Below, in pieces: positions 13,402 through 48,378 of a DNA stretch of 55,456 nt. Below the pieces are notes generated by a model. That model made no database searches, was not told where the DNA came from, and saw only the letters and a list, made by a program, of their open reading frames with translations. The stretch's first letter is position 1; the number at the start of each line of letters is the position of its first letter. The position numbers were made by a program, and so were the translations under genes. Origin of the DNA: a candidate division Zixibacteria bacterium HGW-Zixibacteria-1 (GTDB lineage: Bacteria; Zixibacteria; MSB-5A5; GN15; PGXB01); NCBI GenBank assembly GCA_002838945.1, contig PGXB01000022.1, positions 1-55,456 of the forward strand, in the 5' to 3' direction.

Positions 13402-13766
13402 TTTCGGTTTAGGTCGAACAGGCTGATTTCGGTAGAGAAAAATATTCCCGGCTTTGTGAAATTGCCGTGCAAGTTCTTGCACGGCAATTGTATTTTGCCG
13501 CCTCACTGCAATAAAGAAATGGAATAAAAAAATATTCGACTGCTGATATTTCAAATTTGCCCTTTGCTATTTTTTTATATCTCGTTATATTTAAGAGTTA
13601 TTAATTAGTCACTTATTCATCGACACCTTAGTTATCGATGAATAATGCGGTGTGCGAATATCTGGTGTGAGGCGGTCTCCGGCAATCTGATAATGGGTCG
13701 ATGCAATGAAACATTCACCGCGCCGGAGTGATTATGCACAAATAATATAATCTGGAGAGGTCTCAA
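13402..13766. other. Intergenic leader before the propeller lipoprotein cluster
   Basis: A 365-base gap with no coding signal. It contains the hairpin at 13460-13489, listed separately. A second perfect inverted repeat is TTATTCATCGA (13613-13623) with TCGATGAATAA (13635-13645), separated by 11 bases. A TATAAT at 13746-13751 lies too close to the first start codon to be its only promoter. Confidence 0.4.
13460..13489 (+). terminator. Hairpin after the RND operon
   Basis: AATTGCCGTGCAAG (13460-13473) is perfectly complementary to CTTGCACGGCAATT (13476-13489) with a two-base centre. It lies 58 bases after the pump stop codon. The following GTATTTTG is only weakly T-rich, so termination is likely but not certain. 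Confidence 0.5.
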
Positions 13767-14846
13767 ATGAAAAAATCATGGTTCTTTCCGGCCGGAGTGC
13801 TTGGTATCATGTTGATTCTCGGCCTGATCTTCTCGGCTTGCTCGGATGATCCGACCGGCCCTTCCGGCAAATGGGCCTGGCGCCCGCTCGGGTCGGGGAC
13901 AAATGGCTCGGTCGCGGCACTTACAGAGTACAACAACAAATTAATCGTGGGCGGATGGTTCTCCGCTGCCGGTGACTCCACGGCACATAACATGGCCGCC
14001 TGGGACGGTTTCAAATGGTCAACTCTCGGTTCCGGGTGTGACAACGTGGTCAACGTAGTTGAAGTCTATAATGGCAAGCTGTATGCCGGGGGTGGATTCA
14101 CCGTAGCCGGCGGTGTAGCCGCCAATAGAATTGCGTCCTGGGATGGCTCTGCCTGGGCTTCTTTGGGAACCGGCATGACCGGCCCTGATGTCTATGCCAT
14201 GGCCATATATGATGACAAGCTGATTGTGGGCGGAAATTTTAGATTCGCCGGCGGACTCGCCGCCGACTACATCGCCGCCTGGGATGGGACAAACTGGTCA
14301 ACTGTCGGATCAGGCGTGAACGGGGTTGTCTGGGGACTGGAAGTGTACGACGGCAAGTTGATTGCCAGCGGATATTTTACTTCGGCCGGCGGTACCGCGG
14401 CTGATGGAATCGCTTCATGGGATGGAACCAACTGGGCGCCTCTGGGTTCGGGCGTGGACAATGACCCTTGGGCAACGATTGTATATAACGACAAGCTGGT
14501 TGTCGGCGGCTCTTTCATACATGCCGGAGGAGTCAGTACCGACTACATTGCGGCCTGGGATGGTTCCTCCTGGTCGCCGCTGGGAGCCGGAATGGATCAA
14601 TCCGTATATGCGCTGAGCGTTTTTAACGGCAAACTGATTGCCGCCGGATTGTTTTCGGAGGCCGGCGGTGTCGCTGCCAATAAAGTCGCGTCCTGGAACG
14701 GCTCCTCCTGGTCTGAGGTCGGTGGCGGAACAAATAATAGAATCCTCGAATTCGAAGTCTGGAACGGTAAGCTCTACGGCGGTGGCGAATTCAATGTCGC
14801 GGGCGGCGACAGCATCAATTACATCGCCGAGTGGAGCTATAAATAA
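13767..14846 (+). CDS. WDG-repeat lipoprotein, predicted seven-bladed propeller (copy 1)
   Basis: A 359-residue lipoprotein with a lipobox at C25 (IFSAC) followed by SDDPTGPS. The mature part is about six full units of 46 residues plus a closing partial unit. Each unit follows the scheme Y-[ND]-x-K-L-[IV]-x-G-G-x-F-x-x-A-G-G, then I-A-x-W-D-G-x-x-W, then L-G-S-G. The last unit ends IAEWSYK and would complete a velcro-closed ring of seven blades. Such repeats are common in secreted proteins of unknown function. The ATG follows GGAGAGG. It is the first of three tandem paralogues that share the signal segment, blade number and C terminus. The propeller fold is inferred from the repeat length; ligand and role are unknown. 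Confidence 0.8.
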   Translation: MKKSWFFPAGVLGIMLILGLIFSACSDDPTGPSGKWAWRPLGSGTNGSVAALTEYNNKLIVGGWFSAAGDSTAHNMAAWDGFKWSTLGSGCDNVVNVVEVYNGKLYAGGGFTVAGGVAANRIASWDGSAWASLGTGMTGPDVYAMAIYDDKLIVGGNFRFAGGLAADYIAAWDGTNWSTVGSGVNGVVWGLEVYDGKLIASGYFTSAGGTAADGIASWDGTNWAPLGSGVDNDPWATIVYNDKLVVGGSFIHAGGVSTDYIAAWDGSSWSPLGAGMDQSVYALSVFNGKLIAAGLFSEAGGVAANKVASWNGSSWSEVGGGTNNRILEFEVWNGKLYGGGEFNVAGGDSINYIAEWSYK

Positions 14847-14883
14847 TCAATTATTTGCATCAATCCTGTAATTGGTGAGACAA
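14847..14883 (+). repeat. Duplicated intergenic spacer, first copy
   Basis: The spacer between copies 1 and 2 ends with ATTTGCATCAATCCTGTAAT, then TGGTGAGACAA before the ATG. The spacer between copies 2 and 3 (15976-16012) is nearly identical in sequence and position. This shows that gene and spacer were duplicated together as one unit. Confidence 0.8.
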
Positions 14884-15975
14884 ATGAAAAAAGTCGCATT
14901 AATAATTGCCCTGATAATCGGTCTTCTCCTGATTATCTGCGCATTTTTATCTGGCTGCTCTGATGATCCGACGAGCCCGACTGGACCAAAGGGCAATTGG
15001 GCGTGGCGCCCTCTTGGATCGGGGACAAATGGCCCTGTCGCCGCGTTTACAGTGTACAATAACCAATTAATCGCAGGCGGATTATTTACGTCTGCCGGGG
15101 ATTCAACCGTCAGCAATATTGCGTCGTGGGATGGCTCCAATTGGTCAACCCTCGGTTCCGGGATGAGCGCTTGGAGATGGGTTAATGCCGTCGAAGTATA
15201 TGGCGGTTCGTTATATGCCGGGGGGGGATTCATCGTAGCCGGCGGCGTCGATGTCAATCATATTGCGGCCTGGGATGGTTCTGCCTGGGCGCCCGTGGGA
15301 GCCGGAGTGAACGATATGATTTTTTCCATGACCGTTTACGACAATAAATTGATTGTGGGCGGACAATTTACTACCGCTGGCGGGAGCGGCGCCAATTTCA
15401 TTGCGGCCTGGGATGGGGCCGTCTGGACGGCGCTTGGATCAGGAGTAAATTCAAGTGTCTTTGCTTTGTCGGTGTACGACGGTAAATTGATTGCCAGCGG
15501 ATATTTCTCAGCTGCGGGGGGGAACCCTGCCAATGGGATCGCCTCCTGGGATGGGGCCGCCTGGGCACCCCTTGGTTCTGGTGTGGACAATGAACCCTGG
15601 GCAACGACAGTTTACGATAACAAACTGATCGTCTGCGGCAAATTCACTCAGGCCGGAGGGGTGGATGCAAACAATATTGCGGCCTGGAACGGATCCTACT
15701 GGTCACCGCTGGGTACCGGGATGGATTCTTCCGTAATTTCGCTGGAAGTATTCAACGGCCAGTTGATTGCCGGCGGCTATTTCAACACGGCCGGCGGCGT
15801 CAGCGTAGGTAAAGTGGCTTCATGGAACGGTTCATCCTGGTCATCGTTCGGCGGCGGAACAGACCAGGAAATCCTGGAATTCGAAGTGTGGGGCGATAAA
15901 ATGATCGCCGGTGGTCAGTTTCTGGTTGCAGGCGCCGACAGCATTAATCACATCGCCGAATGGAGCTATAAATAG
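14884..15975 (+). CDS. WDG-repeat lipoprotein, predicted seven-bladed propeller (copy 2)
   Basis: A 363-residue paralogue of the preceding gene. The lipobox ends at C25 (FLSGC) and is followed by SDDPTSPT. Units of about 46 residues repeat with the same GG-x-F-x-x-AGG and WDG-x-x-W cores, again closing with HIAEWSYK. I prefer ATG 14884 over an upstream TTG at 14872 because it aligns with the MKK start of copy 1 and has GGTGAGA in ribosome-site position. It ends with TAG, which therefore acts as a normal stop in this genome. Copies 1 and 2 differ throughout, so the duplication is not very recent or has diversified. Function unknown; likely anchored in the outer membrane. Confidence 0.8.
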   Translation: MKKVALIIALIIGLLLIICAFLSGCSDDPTSPTGPKGNWAWRPLGSGTNGPVAAFTVYNNQLIAGGLFTSAGDSTVSNIASWDGSNWSTLGSGMSAWRWVNAVEVYGGSLYAGGGFIVAGGVDVNHIAAWDGSAWAPVGAGVNDMIFSMTVYDNKLIVGGQFTTAGGSGANFIAAWDGAVWTALGSGVNSSVFALSVYDGKLIASGYFSAAGGNPANGIASWDGAAWAPLGSGVDNEPWATTVYDNKLIVCGKFTQAGGVDANNIAAWNGSYWSPLGTGMDSSVISLEVFNGQLIAGGYFNTAGGVSVGKVASWNGSSWSSFGGGTDQEILEFEVWGDKMIAGGQFLVAGADSINHIAEWSYK

Positions 15976-16012
15976 ACAACCATTTGCATCAATCCTGTAA
16001 TTGGTGGGACAA
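15976..16012 (+). repeat. Duplicated intergenic spacer, second copy
   Basis: Nearly identical to 14847-14883, differing at only a few positions (for example GGTGGGAC in place of GGTGAGAC). It marks the second junction of the tandem gene array. Confidence 0.8.
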
Positions 16013-17098
16013 ATGAAAAAACTTCGGTTAATGCTTACATTGATAATCGGAAGCATCCTGATTATCGGCGCTTTGTTTTCCGGTTGTTCGGATGATCCGA
16101 CAGGACCAACGGCCAAGTGGGCCTGGCGTCCACTTGGTTCGGGGTCAGCCTACGCTCTCGGGGCGCTGACAGTATACGATAATAAAGTATTTGCTGCCGG
16201 AAATTTCTTGGATGACGTCGATTTTATGGCCAACGATATCGTGATATGGGACGGTTCTGACTGGTCGATCCACGGATCAGGGACGGATAGCATGGTTCTT
16301 GCCATGACCGTTTATGACAACAAGTTGATTGTCGCTGGTCAATTTTCATCCGTCAACGGGGTCAGCGCGAGCAAAATTGCGGCCTGGGATGGTTCTGCCT
16401 GGACCCCGCTGGGATCAGGAGTGGATCATCGGGTTTATGCCATGGTCGTTTATGACAACAAGCTGATTGTCGGCGGCGAAATTACTTCCGCCGGCGGAGT
16501 AAATGTAAATCGTATTGCGGCCTGGGATGGATCTTCCTAGACTCAACTCGGATCCGGTATTACCGGATATGTCTATTCGCTCTGTGTGTACGACAACAAG
16601 CTTATCGCCGGAGGGTGGTTCACCTCGGCCGGCGGCGTTGGCGCCAGAGGAATCGCGGTCTGGGATGGCTCTTCCTGGAGCCCGCTTGGGTCAGGCTTTA
16701 CGGGTGATAATGACGAGGTCTTTTGTCTTTCCCCTTACGGCGACAAATTGATTGCCAGCGGATATCTTGATCAGGCGGGATCGGTCAATGTCAATAATAT
16801 CGCGGCTTGGGATGGTTCTGCCTGGACAGATCTGGCACCAGAGATGAATAATGGGATTAGTCCACTTATCATATTTAACAATAAATTGATTGCCGTGGAA
16901 AATTTGACATCACCCTTCGATCCAAGCGCCTATAGAATCTTTTCCTGGAACGGATCTTCCTGGTCCCCGCTGGGGTCAGGCATGAATGGAAGGATCCTTG
17001 ACTTTGCGGTTTTCGGCAACAAATTGATCGCATGTGGAGAATTTGACATGGCCGGCGGCGACAGCGTCAACTACATCGCCGAATGGAGCTATAAATAG
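16013..17098 (+). pseudogene. WDG-repeat lipoprotein copy 3, interrupted by an amber codon
   Basis: The third tandem copy, about 361 codons. It has the same lipobox C25 (LFSGC, then SDDPTGPT), the same 46-residue units and the same C-terminal YIAEWSYK. It is interrupted by an in-frame TAG at 16538-16540. The codon occupies the second Trp of a WDG-x-x-W core: DGSS-stop-TQLGSG here against DGSSWSPLGAG in copy 1. One TGG-to-TAG change explains it, and the frame stays open on both sides. Copy 2 terminates normally at a TAG, so general amber readthrough is unlikely. Options are a recent pseudogene, a truncated four-blade product, or a sequence error. The downstream half looks intact. Confidence 0.75.
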
Positions 17099-19997: not shown

Positions 19998-21785
19998 ATG
20001 AATAGACGAATTTGGCAGGCAATTCTTGTCTGCGCCCTGTTGTTGTTCGCCGCCGCGGTTCCGGCGGTCGCACAAAATATTGACGCCAAAGAATACTGGC
20101 TCGATAACGGCATGCAGGTATTGATGGTCGAGCGGCATGAATCCCCGACCATCATGGCCTCAATTGCGGCCCGGGTCGGTTCGGCCAACGAAATCACCGG
20201 CATCACCGGAATTTCACATCTTTTCGAGCACATGATGTTTAAAGGGACCGAAACGATCGGTACCAAGGATATCAAGCGTGATCGGGAAATTATGGCCCGG
20301 CTCGACTCATTACGGGAATTAATGCAGGCCGAGGAACGGATTATGCGCGAGCAGCTTCGCCGCGGCGAAATCAAGGATATGCTTGACCCCGAGGCCAAGA
20401 CACCGCGCTATCGCGAAATTGACGCCGTCTTCGACAGTCTGATTCTCGAGCAGCGCCAGTTGATCATTAAAGATCAGCTTGATGAACTTTACAGCAAGAA
20501 CGGCGGTTATTTCCTGAACGCTTTCACCTCGGAAGATATGACCGGTTATCTGGTCCGCCTGCCCAAGAACAAAATTGAGTTGTACATGTGGCTGGAATCC
20601 GACCGCTTCCAAAATGCGGTCTTCAGGGAATTTTATTCCGAGCGCGATGTGGTCCGAGAGGAGCGCCGTCTCGGTGTCGAATCAACCCCGACCGGATTGA
20701 TCGAAGAAGATTTCAAGGCGATGTTCTGGAAGTCATCCTCATACCATTGGGATGTTATCGGGTGGGCCTCCGATCTCGGCAGTATCACACGTGACCAGGC
20801 CAACGCTTACTTCGATACTTATTATGCACCGAATAACCTGACCATGATTCTTGTCGGTGATCTGAACCCGGACGAGATGATTAAACTGGTCAGGAAATAC
20901 TTCGAGCGTATTCCCCGCGGCACCACGGAACCGCCGGATGTGACGACTCTCGAGGAAAAGCAGTACGGCGAAAAGCGCCTGATTGCCCGGGCGGAAACCA
21001 GCCCCAAAACCGAAATCTGGTACCATACCGTAGCCTGGAAACACCCCGACAGTTATCCGCTGGAAATCCTGGCCGGAGTTATGGGCGGCAAGACCGGCCG
21101 GCTCTATAAGAAGCTGGTCGAGGAAAAGGGTTTGGCCAAAAGTTCGGGAGGCGGCGGCCCGCGCATGATGCCCGGCAGCGATCTGGCTGTCGATGCCATC
21201 CAGGACTCCAAGAAATATGCCGGCTCCTTTCAGATCAGAGCCGAAGGAATCTCGGGAGTTCAAGCCGAACAACTGGAAGGGGCCATGTCTGAAGTGATTG
21301 AAGATCTGAAGCAGAACCCGGTTTCCGAGGAAGAACTGCAGAAGGTAAAAAATCAGCTGCGCGTGCAGAAAATCAGGTTTATGGATATCATGTCCGGAAT
21401 CGGCATCCTGTTTTATCTGGGCCAGAATGCCGCCATGGGCGACTGGACCGAAGCCAACAACAGTTCAGCAAAACTGGATATGGTCACGGCGGCGGATGTG
21501 CAGCGCGTGGCCAACGAGTATTTTGCGGATGACCAGCGAAACGTCATGATTATTAACAGCAAGGCCGGACAGGAATCGGGCGGGGACGAGGAAGATCCCC
21601 AGTTTACTCAAATGGTGCAAATGATCAAGTCGATTAATGATCCCGCCCGGCTGGAACAGATGATCGGTATGGTTTCGATGCGGCTGGATCAGATTGATGA
21701 CCCCGAAGAGAAAGCCAGTGCCGAAAAACTCCTGAAAATCGCCAATGACCATCTCAACCAACTCAAAGCGGCCGAGAAAGAATAA
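19998..21785 (+). CDS. M16 zinc peptidase, catalytic subunit
   Basis: A 595-residue exported peptidase. Signal peptide residues 1-26 end AVPAVAQ. The inverted zinc motif H74-L-F-E77-H78 (GISHLFEHMMFKGT) is intact. The third zinc ligand probably lies in the VVREERRLGVES block. An insertion of roughly 60 charged residues follows the zinc helix, before NGGYFLNAFTSEDMTGY. The second M16 domain includes the GGKTGRLYKKLVEEKGLAKSS block that forms the substrate-binding Arg/Tyr region in this fold. The ATG has AAGGAGCTGCTC upstream. The next gene encodes a second M16 protein lacking the zinc motif, 25 bases downstream. The two probably form an active/inactive heterodimer in the periplasm, as known for other bacterial M16 pairs. 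Confidence 0.9.
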   Translation: MNRRIWQAILVCALLLFAAAVPAVAQNIDAKEYWLDNGMQVLMVERHESPTIMASIAARVGSANEITGITGISHLFEHMMFKGTETIGTKDIKRDREIMARLDSLRELMQAEERIMREQLRRGEIKDMLDPEAKTPRYREIDAVFDSLILEQRQLIIKDQLDELYSKNGGYFLNAFTSEDMTGYLVRLPKNKIELYMWLESDRFQNAVFREFYSERDVVREERRLGVESTPTGLIEEDFKAMFWKSSSYHWDVIGWASDLGSITRDQANAYFDTYYAPNNLTMILVGDLNPDEMIKLVRKYFERIPRGTTEPPDVTTLEEKQYGEKRLIARAETSPKTEIWYHTVAWKHPDSYPLEILAGVMGGKTGRLYKKLVEEKGLAKSSGGGGPRMMPGSDLAVDAIQDSKKYAGSFQIRAEGISGVQAEQLEGAMSEVIEDLKQNPVSEEELQKVKNQLRVQKIRFMDIMSGIGILFYLGQNAAMGDWTEANNSSAKLDMVTAADVQRVANEYFADDQRNVMIINSKAGQESGGDEEDPQFTQMVQMIKSINDPARLEQMIGMVSMRLDQIDDPEEKASAEKLLKIANDHLNQLKAAEKE

Positions 21786-21810
21786 GGCCTGCGCCATAGG
21801 AGAAATGAAT

Positions 21811-23319
21811 ATGAAAAGATTATGCATTCTTCCGTTCAGCCGGCTGATGGCGCTTGTGATGATCCCGGCGCTGGCCGTCATGCTGTTTTTTGCTTCCGCC
21901 GCCACGGCGGATGATATCGTCAATCATCCCGATAAGTTGAAATTCAAAGAGCTGAATTACCAGCCGCCCAAACCGGGAGATTACCGCCATCAATTGAAAT
22001 GCGGCGCCGCCGCTTATGTGGTGGAAAATCCTGAGATGCCCACCTTTGACCTGACCATCCTGGTCCGCACCGGATCGATTTATGACCCGATCGAAAAAGC
22101 CGGGCTGGCCGACATGACCGGGTATCTGATGCGAAACGGCGGCGTCCAGGGTATGACCGTCAAAGAAATCGACGAACGTCTGGCTTACCTGGCCGGGGAT
22201 ATTTCGATCAATATCGACGAGACCCAGGGCGCGGTCACTTTGTTCTGCCTTGCGAAAGATATGGATGAGGGTTTGATGCTGCTGAAGAAAATCCTGTACA
22301 CTCCCGTTTTCTCACAGGAGGCCCTCGACCGTTACCGCGCGGATATTCTTTCGGATCTGGAACAGCGCAATGCATCCACCGCCGGAATCGAATCGCGCGA
22401 ATGGAATTTCCTGATGTACGGCGATCACCCGTCCACTATTCCCTTTCGCCGCACCGAACAATCGATCAATTCCATCACCCGCGAAGACTTGATCGCCTTC
22501 CATAAAAAATACTTCTTCCCCAAAAATTTTACATTCGCAATCTCCGGTGATTTCAAAACCAAAGATATCCTGGCCAAGCTGAATGATCTTCTCGGCGGAT
22601 GGCCCGATCAGAAACTGGAGTTGCCGGTCATATCGGATCAAATACCCGATCCGAAACCGGGGGTATATATGATCAGGAAAGAGGATGTCAACCAGTCGCG
22701 CATCCGCGTGGGGCATCTCGGCGTCAAACGCGATATCCCCGATGAGTATGCCTTGCTGGTAATGAATGATATTCTCGGCGGCGGCGGCTTCACCTCGCGC
22801 ATCATGAGCCGGGTTCGCTCGGATGAGGGTCTGGCCTATAATACCGGCAGTGCTTTCAACCGCCCGGTTTTGTATCCGGGAACATTTCGGGCCTGGTTCC
22901 AGACCAAGCACGAAACCGCAGCATTCGGCACCAGGTTGATTGTCGATGAAATCAAGCGTATCCGCACCGAAAAATGCGAGGCGGAAATTGTGGAGAACGC
23001 CAAAGCTTCGTTTATCGGCAACCTGGTCAACCCCTTCAGCAGCAAAAAGGATATTGTCAACACTTTCGCGGATGATGATTACACCGGCCGGCCCGATGAT
23101 TACTGGCAAAACTATACCAAAAACATGGAAGCGGTGACGCCCGACAATGTTCTGGCCGTTGCCCAGAAATACCTGCATCCGGATAAACTTGTCTTTCTGA
23201 TCATCGGCGATCCCGATGCGGTGGAAAAAGGCTCGGATAAACATCCTGAGCATTTTTCGGATTTTGGCGAAGTTACCATTTTGCCGTTGCGCGATCCGAT
23301 GACATTGGAAACGAAATAG
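21811..23319 (+). CDS. M16-family protein without zinc motif, partner subunit
   Basis: A 502-residue exported protein with a hydrophobic signal ending near SAATADD. Both M16 domains can be followed. The position of the zinc motif reads GLADMTGYLMRNGG, so no H-x2-E-H remains and the subunit cannot bind zinc there. The C-terminal half keeps GGGGFTSRIMSRVRSDEGLAY, the Arg/Tyr element that inactive partners contribute to the shared active site. I chose ATG 21811 because AGGAGA lies eight bases upstream; ATG 21805 would be too close. It shares a transcript with the catalytic subunit and ends at a strong terminator. Confidence 0.88.
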   Translation: MKRLCILPFSRLMALVMIPALAVMLFFASAATADDIVNHPDKLKFKELNYQPPKPGDYRHQLKCGAAAYVVENPEMPTFDLTILVRTGSIYDPIEKAGLADMTGYLMRNGGVQGMTVKEIDERLAYLAGDISINIDETQGAVTLFCLAKDMDEGLMLLKKILYTPVFSQEALDRYRADILSDLEQRNASTAGIESREWNFLMYGDHPSTIPFRRTEQSINSITREDLIAFHKKYFFPKNFTFAISGDFKTKDILAKLNDLLGGWPDQKLELPVISDQIPDPKPGVYMIRKEDVNQSRIRVGHLGVKRDIPDEYALLVMNDILGGGGFTSRIMSRVRSDEGLAYNTGSAFNRPVLYPGTFRAWFQTKHETAAFGTRLIVDEIKRIRTEKCEAEIVENAKASFIGNLVNPFSSKKDIVNTFADDDYTGRPDDYWQNYTKNMEAVTPDNVLAVAQKYLHPDKLVFLIIGDPDAVEKGSDKHPEHFSDFGEVTILPLRDPMTLETK

Positions 23320-46362: not shown

Positions 46363-48378
46363 ATGGAAGAAAATAATTCCCAACAGCCCCTCCGCGAAAT
46401 ATCGGATGAAGAGCTAAATCAAGTATTAGAAGCTCACAAATTATGGCTTTTACCAGGGGATAAAGAAGGTGTGCGTGCTGATCTAAGTTACGTCAATCTT
46501 GCTCAAAGAGATTTGAATGGTATAAATTTGACTGATGCTATTTTACAGGGGTGCCAATTAGAAGGGGCAAAATTAGCTGGAGCCAATCTGACCAAAGCTC
46601 TATGTGCCGGAGCCAATTTTGGTGGTGCCTTAATGCACTTGGCATTTTTGGCTAATGCAAGTTTGTTAGCTTCTGATTTAAGAGGGGCCCATTTGTTTCG
46701 TGCTGATTTGAGTAGTGCTATATTGAGTAACGCAAAGATACAGGATGCGAAATGTAATAATGCCAATTTCTCAAATGCCGACCTAAATAGCGCCGATGTT
46801 GATGGGGCAATTTTCGACAAAGCAAACCTGCAAAATGCAAATCTTGACAATATCAAAAACCTGAATAAGGCAAGCTTACACAATGTAAATATGGAAGGCG
46901 CCACCGGCCTCAAAGGCACTGAATTTGCCCGGGCCGATATTACCGGGGCGCGTCTGCCGGAAGGTATCCGCGATTTTTCGGCTCTTGAAACTGTCGAAGA
47001 GACTTCCAGGAATGCCCGGAAAATATTTTTCGCAACTTTGTTGGCCTGCGTTTATTGCTGGCTGACTATCGGAACCACCACCGATGTCAAACTAATCACC
47101 AATACCGCTTCTTCGCCGCTTCCCATTATTGGGACCGCTATTCCAATTGCATGGTTTTACAAAGTTGCGCCGGTTATGCTTGCCTGCCTTTATTTCTATT
47201 TGCACTTTTATCTTCAGCGGCTCTGGCAGTCGATGGCCGGATTGCCCGCCATTTTTGAAGATGGTCGACCTCTTGATGAACGTGCTTATCCCTGGATTCT
47301 CAACGGCCTTGTCCGCAGGCACTTTGAGATATTGCGAAAAAGGCGCTCTCTTCTTAACCAATTTGAAGAAATTGTCAGCATTGTTCTGGCATGGTGGGTG
47401 GTGCCAATTACTCTATTATGGTTCTGGCTCCGTTACATTCCCCGCCATGATTGGATCGGAACAAATTTGCAAATAGCCCTGATAACAATCTCAATTGCCG
47501 CCGGGTTATTTTTCTACAATGCTCATGCTTCAGTTCTCAGGGGCAAAAAACCACTCCCATTCACCCTAAAAAAATGCTGGCGTGATAAACGCATTTTCAA
47601 ATGCCTTGGTGTAATCATATCCCTGTCATTATTAATAATATTATCATACGGTTCGATAAATGGAACGCGGGAATTTGAGGATATTGGAGCAATTTCGAAA
47701 ATATCACTTGTGCCGCGCATATTTTCATGGATCGGATATGATGTCTTTGCTAATATTGTCGAAAAAGATGTCTCATTAAAACCGGAAAATTATTGGATGA
47801 TCGATTCATTGTCTCGCGAAAATGCTATAACTGGAGCAAGACTTGCCTATGCTGATTTGAGATATGCCAGTGCTCGTTCGGCCTTTATGGCTAACGCGGA
47901 TATGCGATATGCGGATATTAGGGGGGCTCATTTCATCAGCACTGACCTTCAGGGTGCTGATCTCACCGGGACTAACCTTAAAGACGCGAATCTCACATGG
48001 GCTAACCTTAAGGGTGCTGATCTCACCCTTGCTAGCCTTCAGGGCACCAATCTCTTCAATGCCAATCTTCAGGATGCTGATCTCACTCATGCCAACCTTC
48101 AGGGTGCTTTACTCACATCGGCCAGACTTCAGGGCGCTTTTCTCGTGAGGGCCAACCTCCAGGGCGCTGATATCACAACGGCTAACCTTCAGGGCGCTGA
48201 TTTCCAGTGGGCTCGACTTCAGGGTGCTGATCTCACTTATTCAGGCAATCTCACTCAGAAGAAACTTGATGTGGCTTGTGGAGACAGCCTGACCAAATTG
48301 CCCGATGGCCTAACAATCCCACTATGCGATACTTGCGCCTGGTATAGAGTTATATATGGATTTGAAGATACATTGTAA
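46363..48378 (+). CDS. Pentapeptide-repeat membrane protein (repeat - membrane - repeat)
   Basis: A 671-residue protein with three parts. Residues 38-200 are an A-[DN]-L-x-x pentapeptide domain. Residues about 220-430 hold roughly five membrane spans (near 220-238, 260-285, 337-358, 369-385, 413-430). Residues about 485-628 are a second, more regular pentapeptide domain. Both repeat domains would form right-handed quadrilateral helices. The DNA of the second domain is itself repetitive, with a 30-base period (about 47950-48238). I know of pentapeptide proteins with added membrane helices, but not this exact split arrangement. The start ATG at 46363 has only a weak GAG upstream. The upstream 190 bases hold no other gene. 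Function unknown. Confidence 0.8.
   Translation: MEENNSQQPLREISDEELNQVLEAHKLWLLPGDKEGVRADLSYVNLAQRDLNGINLTDAILQGCQLEGAKLAGANLTKALCAGANFGGALMHLAFLANASLLASDLRGAHLFRADLSSAILSNAKIQDAKCNNANFSNADLNSADVDGAIFDKANLQNANLDNIKNLNKASLHNVNMEGATGLKGTEFARADITGARLPEGIRDFSALETVEETSRNARKIFFATLLACVYCWLTIGTTTDVKLITNTASSPLPIIGTAIPIAWFYKVAPVMLACLYFYLHFYLQRLWQSMAGLPAIFEDGRPLDERAYPWILNGLVRRHFEILRKRRSLLNQFEEIVSIVLAWWVVPITLLWFWLRYIPRHDWIGTNLQIALITISIAAGLFFYNAHASVLRGKKPLPFTLKKCWRDKRIFKCLGVIISLSLLIILSYGSINGTREFEDIGAISKISLVPRIFSWIGYDVFANIVEKDVSLKPENYWMIDSLSRENAITGARLAYADLRYASARSAFMANADMRYADIRGAHFISTDLQGADLTGTNLKDANLTWANLKGADLTLASLQGTNLFNANLQDADLTHANLQGALLTSARLQGAFLVRANLQGADITTANLQGADFQWARLQGADLTYSGNLTQKKLDVACGDSLTKLPDGLTIPLCDTCAWYRVIYGFEDTL
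47950..48238 (+). repeat. 30-base tandem repeat array coding pentapeptides
   Basis: Nine or so units of about 30 bases resembling GCTAACCTTCAGGGTGCTGA followed by TCTCAC, each coding two pentapeptides such as ANLQG-ADLT. They are far more alike at the DNA level than the pentapeptides of the N-terminal domain, which suggests recent unit expansion by slippage or unequal exchange. Confidence 0.75.

Follow-up and report, generated by a model that had tools for sequence, protein, structure and literature searches.

A tandem array of predicted propeller lipoprotein genes in a Zixibacteria bacterium, with spacers better conserved than the synonymous sites of their flanking genes

The stretch of DNA analysed here (the window) comprises the 55,456 nt of contig C22 (GenBank PGXB01000022.1, positions 1 to 55,456 of the forward strand) from the candidate division Zixibacteria bacterium HGW-Zixibacteria-1, whose 3.83 Mb genome (assembly GCA_002838945.1) is contained in 82 contigs. 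It carries an array of three co-directional reading frames for lipoproteins of predicted beta-propeller fold, designated copies 1, 2 and 3, which are separated by two spacers of 37 nt each (Table 1). Every frame contains seven repeated units, mostly 46-47 residues long, and ends in IAEWSYK. The start of copy 2 was taken as the ATG at 14884, which was preferred over a TTG at 14872. A preliminary description of the locus had recognised the three tandem frames with their common lipobox context, units and C terminus, as well as the near identity of the spacers, and in these respects it was borne out. The array itself is an old tandem expansion of an ordinary kind, in which one copy is dying. Its unusual part is the spacer, whose conservation exceeds that of synonymous sites in the flanking genes.

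Table 1. Features of the propeller lipoprotein array and its leader (window coordinates)
Feature	Position	Strand	Evidence
Copy 1: seven-bladed beta-propeller lipoprotein (predicted fold), 359 aa, intact	13767..14846	+	Reading frame, Pfam match, model, blade units
Spacer 1: 37 nt, with a Shine-Dalgarno-like GGUG; contains most of a hairpin predicted to pair GGUG and the copy 2 AUG	14847..14883	+	
Copy 2: 363 aa, intact; end from start to blade 1 copy 3-like, body copy 1-like	14884..15975	+	
Spacer 2: matches spacer 1 at 33/37 positions, with the hairpin predicted here too	15976..16012	+	
Copy 3: the most divergent; propeller lipoprotein frame with an internal stop codon	16013..17098	+	
In-frame TAG replacing the Trp codon that opens blade 4 of copies 1 and 2	16538..16540	+	
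Terminator-like hairpin, 13 pairs, between AcrB-type transporter gene and array	13460..13489	+	Pattern match only
Inverted repeat with perfect arms (9+9 bp) and 11 nt between them, in copy 1 leader; possible operator	13615..13643	.	

All three copies are lipoproteins by their pattern of signal peptide, lipobox and cysteine. The lipoboxes read FSAC (copy 1), LSGC (copy 2) and FSGC (copy 3), each following a hydrophobic stretch, and the predicted mature protein starts with CSDDP in every case. The common signal that had been attributed to the three genes holds for copies 2 and 3, which are 71% identical in DNA over 25 signal codons, but not for copy 1, which shares only 53 and 57% with the others. 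AlphaFold2, run on an alignment of seven rows, yielded a seven-bladed ring (mean pLDDT 90.9, pTM 0.85) to which solved propellers, presumably also of seven blades, could be matched with Z scores of about 26 over residues 34-359. The seven sequence units, the confident model and these matches together identify the predicted fold as a seven-bladed beta-propeller. The matches include the propeller sensor domain of BT4663 (PDB 4a2l; Z 26.3, rmsd 2.4 over 261 residues, 8% identity) and the WD40 ring of PLRG1 (4yvd; Z 25.9, rmsd 2.8 over 267 residues, 17% identity); a fold shared with these two proteins tells nothing of function. In Pfam, copies 1 and 2 matched DUF5122 (PF17164) with 51.3 and 48.7 bits against a gathering cut-off of 27, and both also exceeded the cut-off for the C-terminal domain of Rax2 (PF12768), a fungal protein. 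The likeness to these propellers lies in the model matches and the repeated blades, while the window proteins differ as free-standing lipoproteins of seven blades. No NCBIfam model matched at its cut-offs, and no PDB entry was found by sequence.

Whether such proteins are likely to reach the cell surface was judged from the residues that follow the lipid-anchor cysteine. SDDDD (B. fragilis) and SDDFE (F. johnsoniae) are given as surface-export signals of Bacteroidetes in PMC5080379. Compared with the signals in that account (PMC5080379), the window lipoproteins agree at +2 (Ser) and at +3 and +4 (Asp) but carry Pro at +5. A polar residue followed by at least two acidic residues after the cysteine was present in all three copies as CSDDP. 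At least two acidic residues at +2 to +5 occurred in 15 of 16 propeller lipoproteins in the stretches scanned, as opposed to 2 of 10 other lipobox frames (p 0.0002), a count that lacks one of two copies in genome G027 and both copies in genome G024, which did not pass the lipobox filter but are included in the tree described below. By analogy, the proteins are probably outer-membrane lipoproteins displayed on the cell surface, where the propeller may serve as a binding ring for a ligand.

Gene plus spacer had been taken as the duplicated unit of a tandem triplication. Pairwise identities among the copies were 66, 52 and 52% for protein and 70, 61 and 63% for DNA, and at fourfold degenerate sites agreement was limited to 71/140 positions for copies 1 and 2, 43/98 for copies 1 and 3, and 42/101 for copies 2 and 3 (42-51%). 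As the fourfold sites are so divergent, the duplications are old and divergence at synonymous sites (dS) is near saturation; the degree of similarity is not that of a recent triplication. A tree was built from 19 lipoprotein propellers of the own and related genomes, with large multi-propeller proteins, copies cut by contig ends and the single copy of genome G073 left out. In it the three copies formed one clade (94/96) in which copies 1 and 2 were sisters (100/98) and copy 3 had a longer branch than either.

Within this clade, copy 2 is a mosaic. A maximum chi-squared test placed a breakpoint near nt 109 of 1101, and none of 2000 permutations was as extreme; sites joining copy 2 with copy 1 made up 5 of 27 to the left of the breakpoint and 197 of 298 to its right, the remainder joining copy 2 with copy 3. 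From these sites copy 2 looks chimeric, with a signal-peptide end from the copy 3 side and a body from the copy 1 side, and unequal crossing-over between two older copies, with the spacer likewise taken from the copy 3 side, is the simplest reading of the mosaic. A literature search on unequal crossing over with lipoprotein paralogs gave nothing relevant among the titles listed. The single clade and the near-identical spacers thus agree with gene plus spacer as the duplicated unit, while the grouping of the signal-peptide region of copy 2 with copy 3 does not. The blades of copies 1 and 2 correspond to each other, with a mean identity over all blades of 0.67 in register and no out-of-register comparison exceeding 0.49, and the inner blades of copy 3 correspond poorly to the blade numbers of either. 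Compared with copy 2, these inner blades scored 0.551 two blades off (3 blade pairs) and 0.498 in register (5 blade pairs); re-amplification of blades in copy 3 was considered, and the blade pairs were too few for it to be claimed.

In tandem paralogues, coding sequence would be expected to be better kept than the gaps, but here the gap is the best-kept part. The spacers agree at 33 of 37 positions, as opposed to third positions of the adjoining 25 codons, which agree at 15/25 (ends of copies 1 and 2) and 13/25 (starts of copies 2 and 3); against the pooled third positions (28/50) the difference is significant (Fisher p 0.0009), and the spacers also exceed the fourfold-site identity of copies 1 and 2 and of copies 2 and 3 given above. 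The same hairpin was predicted in both spacers (-8.3 and -9.3 kcal/mol), and both the GGUG and the AUG of the gene that follows are paired in it. Opening the start region in its local context would cost 8.4 and 9.3 kcal/mol, values that 23 and 12 of 1000 shuffled spacers attained, and on this measure the starts of copies 2 and 3 rank 6 and 2 among 32 gene starts of the window. Of the four differences between the spacers, two are unpaired, one turns a U-G into a C-G pair, which is thereby kept, and one abolishes the outermost pair. Spacers and flanks are similar in age under the histories proposed, yet the spacers are better kept, and a working RNA element is proposed as the best reason for their conservation.

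The explanation preferred here, held as a whole with moderate confidence, is that of an old family of propeller lipoproteins under purifying selection, in which copy 2 was made by a crossover and the spacer hairpin serves translational coupling. The array would have been enlarged when two older copies underwent unequal homologous recombination, a crossover just past the signal peptide giving rise to the middle gene, with its 5' end from copy 3 and its body from copy 1, and to a second spacer. Both spacers would then have stayed nearly unchanged while nearby synonymous sites drifted far. The hairpin would sequester both the start codon of the next gene and its Shine-Dalgarno-like site, silencing copies 2 and 3, until ribosomes ending the preceding gene opened it and allowed the next gene to be translated. 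From the folding predictions, the spacer is a probable start-hiding element opened by terminating ribosomes. Translational coupling by RNA unfolding is described as a mechanism in the review PMC12548453. The coupled pairs named there, rpmI-rplT, MS2 coat-lysis and f1 VII-IX (PMC12548453), would be comparable to the present case through the structure predicted here over the downstream start and near the preceding stop; they differ in that each joins two different genes, whereas the window element recurs within an array of tandem paralogues and is a prediction from sequence.

Several observations weigh against this explanation. Against dinucleotide shuffles the folds have only modest z-scores (-1.95 and -1.17), and when 45 nt upstream and 40 nt downstream were included, the starts of copies 2 and 3 ranked only 14 and 8 of 32. 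There are only two spacers, and no other genome of the order carries the element; where G027 and G024 have adjacent propeller gene pairs, the junctions do not resemble the window spacers, as compared by eye and by folding. Replacement of the signal peptide in copy 1 alone could also have produced the excess of sites joining copies 2 and 3. According to PMC12548453, moreover, structure right after the stop codon lowers coupling.

Finally, the spacers could have been homogenised through local gene conversion. That their likeness stems from recent conversion of this kind, or from use of the spacer as a recombination site, and has no function, is regarded as unlikely, though by no means far-fetched: near identity covers the spacers and the first three codons, windows farther out being about 55-75% identical, and the mosaic of copy 2 indicates that recombination has taken place in the array. 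A conversion tract would, however, need to end almost exactly at the gene edges, given the third positions beyond them, and the spacer differences, of which one preserves a pair and two are unpaired, also count against it.

Copy 3, at the tail of the array, is a decaying copy. It had been described as a whole gene, the in-frame stop at 16538-16540 having been overlooked; this TAG splits it into two open reading frames (ORFs; 16001-16540 and 16586-17098) and leaves only copies 1 and 2 intact. TAG ends 6 of the 30 counted reading frames of the window, and since it closes copies 2 and 3 as well as other frames it is read as a stop in this genome; ARAGORN found no tRNA in the window, to which the search for a suppressor tRNA for TAG was confined. 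Of 60 structural consensus residues, copy 3 has kept 49, as opposed to 59 in each of copies 1 and 2. In pairs with copy 3, the ratio of nonsynonymous to synonymous substitution rates (dN/dS; NG86 and YN00 methods) was 0.19-0.29 past the stop and 0.24-0.57 before it. With values past the stop as low as or below those before it, the nonsense change is either recent or an error of assembly. An assembly or sequencing error, which would leave all three genes intact, was judged rather improbable: a single codon is affected, the frame is open after it and the dN/dS ratios on its far side are about equal to or lower than those before it, but copy 3 has also lost consensus residues and its branch is longer than those of copies 1 and 2, as expected of a decaying copy. 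Elsewhere in the order, propeller matches with internal stops were observed at G003:C10:50036-50776, G033:C17:53578-54447, G027:C23:862-1425 and G032:C17:158-544, so that copy decay may not be unique to the window.

The state of copy 3 also bears on the possibility that the hairpin is a plain brake which lowers the output of copies 2 and 3 by degrees, with no coupling involved. This was thought distinctly improbable, even though the predicted hiding of GGUG and AUG, the lowering of coupling reported for post-stop structure (PMC12548453) and the decay of copy 3, whose output may matter little, are all in keeping with it. The hairpin starts only a few nucleotides past the stop codon of the preceding gene, within reach of the terminating ribosome, which argues for coupling over a plain brake. 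A ribosome footprint would disturb a hairpin lying a few nucleotides beyond a stop codon.

Strands and loops of the propellers are both under purifying selection. Over the whole gene, dN/dS was 0.23-0.29 (NG86) and 0.38-0.40 (YN00), and when sites were divided by the secondary structure of the model, NG86 gave 0.20, 0.29 and 0.31 for strands and 0.23, 0.23 and 0.25 for loops, so that exposed loops remain far from the values above 1 that would indicate diversifying selection; with dS near saturation, such pairwise ratios cannot exclude a few selected sites. Within the blades, variation is lowest at structural residues, namely Trp, Gly, Tyr, Leu and Asp. A limitation of variation to neutral sites, which would have refuted the preliminary description, was nevertheless not seen, as the proteins differ at 34-48% of positions, although protein differences accumulate more slowly than synonymous ones. 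The diversification of loops under selection proposed in that description was not supported, and a recent triplication of surface proteins with loops diversifying in this way is scarcely credible: a surface location is likely and loops are somewhat more variable than strands in copies 1 and 2 (identity 0.616 and 0.719) and copies 2 and 3 (0.471 and 0.543), but hardly so in copies 1 and 3 (0.514 and 0.522), dN/dS is well below 1 for strands and loops alike, and saturation is close at fourfold sites.

The propeller query P0001 had a match in 38 of 60 relatives (a tally that counts the window's own genome). Of 80 genomes of the order, 1 had the spacer pattern, namely the window's own. No P0001 match was found in the sole genus mate compared (G001), which is weak evidence of absence, as that genome is 86% complete and in 470 contigs. 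The closest relative outside the own genome is a single gene in G073 (54% identity), which lies between genes for a PDZ protein and a nitroreductase-like protein (named by eye); single genes in relatives with unrelated neighbours, held beforehand to speak against tandem triplication, were thus seen in the closest outside relative. In G027 and G024, which belong to another family of the same order, propeller lipoprotein genes stand in adjacent pairs on one strand, and the first and second genes fall into separate clades, which makes this an older pair. Frames with fewer than two WDG-type motifs were dropped from the scan of related genomes. A literature search combining Zixibacteria and beta-propeller found no paper.

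In the own genome, one further single lipoprotein copy on contig C28 and a long multi-repeat protein were found. A scan of genome contigs gave six distant loci of 35-48% identity. A 1230-residue frame at L039 3583-7275 (G000:C28, minus strand) has about a dozen blades like those of the window copies, followed by what we take to be FG-GAP-like repeats and then a C-terminal dockerin-like double motif. Methyltransferase orthologues of 55-67% identity are present in 7 of the 14 other genomes of the family. In a tblastn search with seven window proteins, no HlyD, AcrB, BBE-type oxidase or M16 peptidases were found beside the methyltransferase orthologue in L071, L074, L075, L137, L138 and L139, some of these stretches being a few kb long, and none of these six contigs carried a P0001 propeller match among the matches listed.

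As for the surroundings of the array, the terminator-like hairpin lies 3' of the AcrB-type transporter gene, so that the array probably has a transcript of its own; seven hairpins of this pattern were found in the window, as opposed to a mean of 4.5 in shuffles. For the inverted repeat that precedes copy 1, the genome has no other site with fewer than three mismatches, and a reversed control pattern was likewise without matches. Elsewhere in the window, two adjoining M16 peptidase genes occupy 19998-23319, and the sole array reported by Tandem Repeats Finder (47945-48236, period 30, 9.7 copies) lies within the frame 46363-48378 and, as a guess from the period, could consist of pentapeptide-type repeats.

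Under the preferred explanation, of an old array with a crossover-made copy 2 and a coupling hairpin in its spacers, a further suggestion can be made tentatively, namely that the hairpin is a portable coupling element which moves with each copy on recombination, so that new copies would be wired to the translation of the preceding copy and the spacer would be selected more strictly than the protein. If the start-hiding hairpin is real, a duplicated gene would keep a fixed dose relative to its neighbour, and the array would present a plain case of how duplicates die at the tail of an array.

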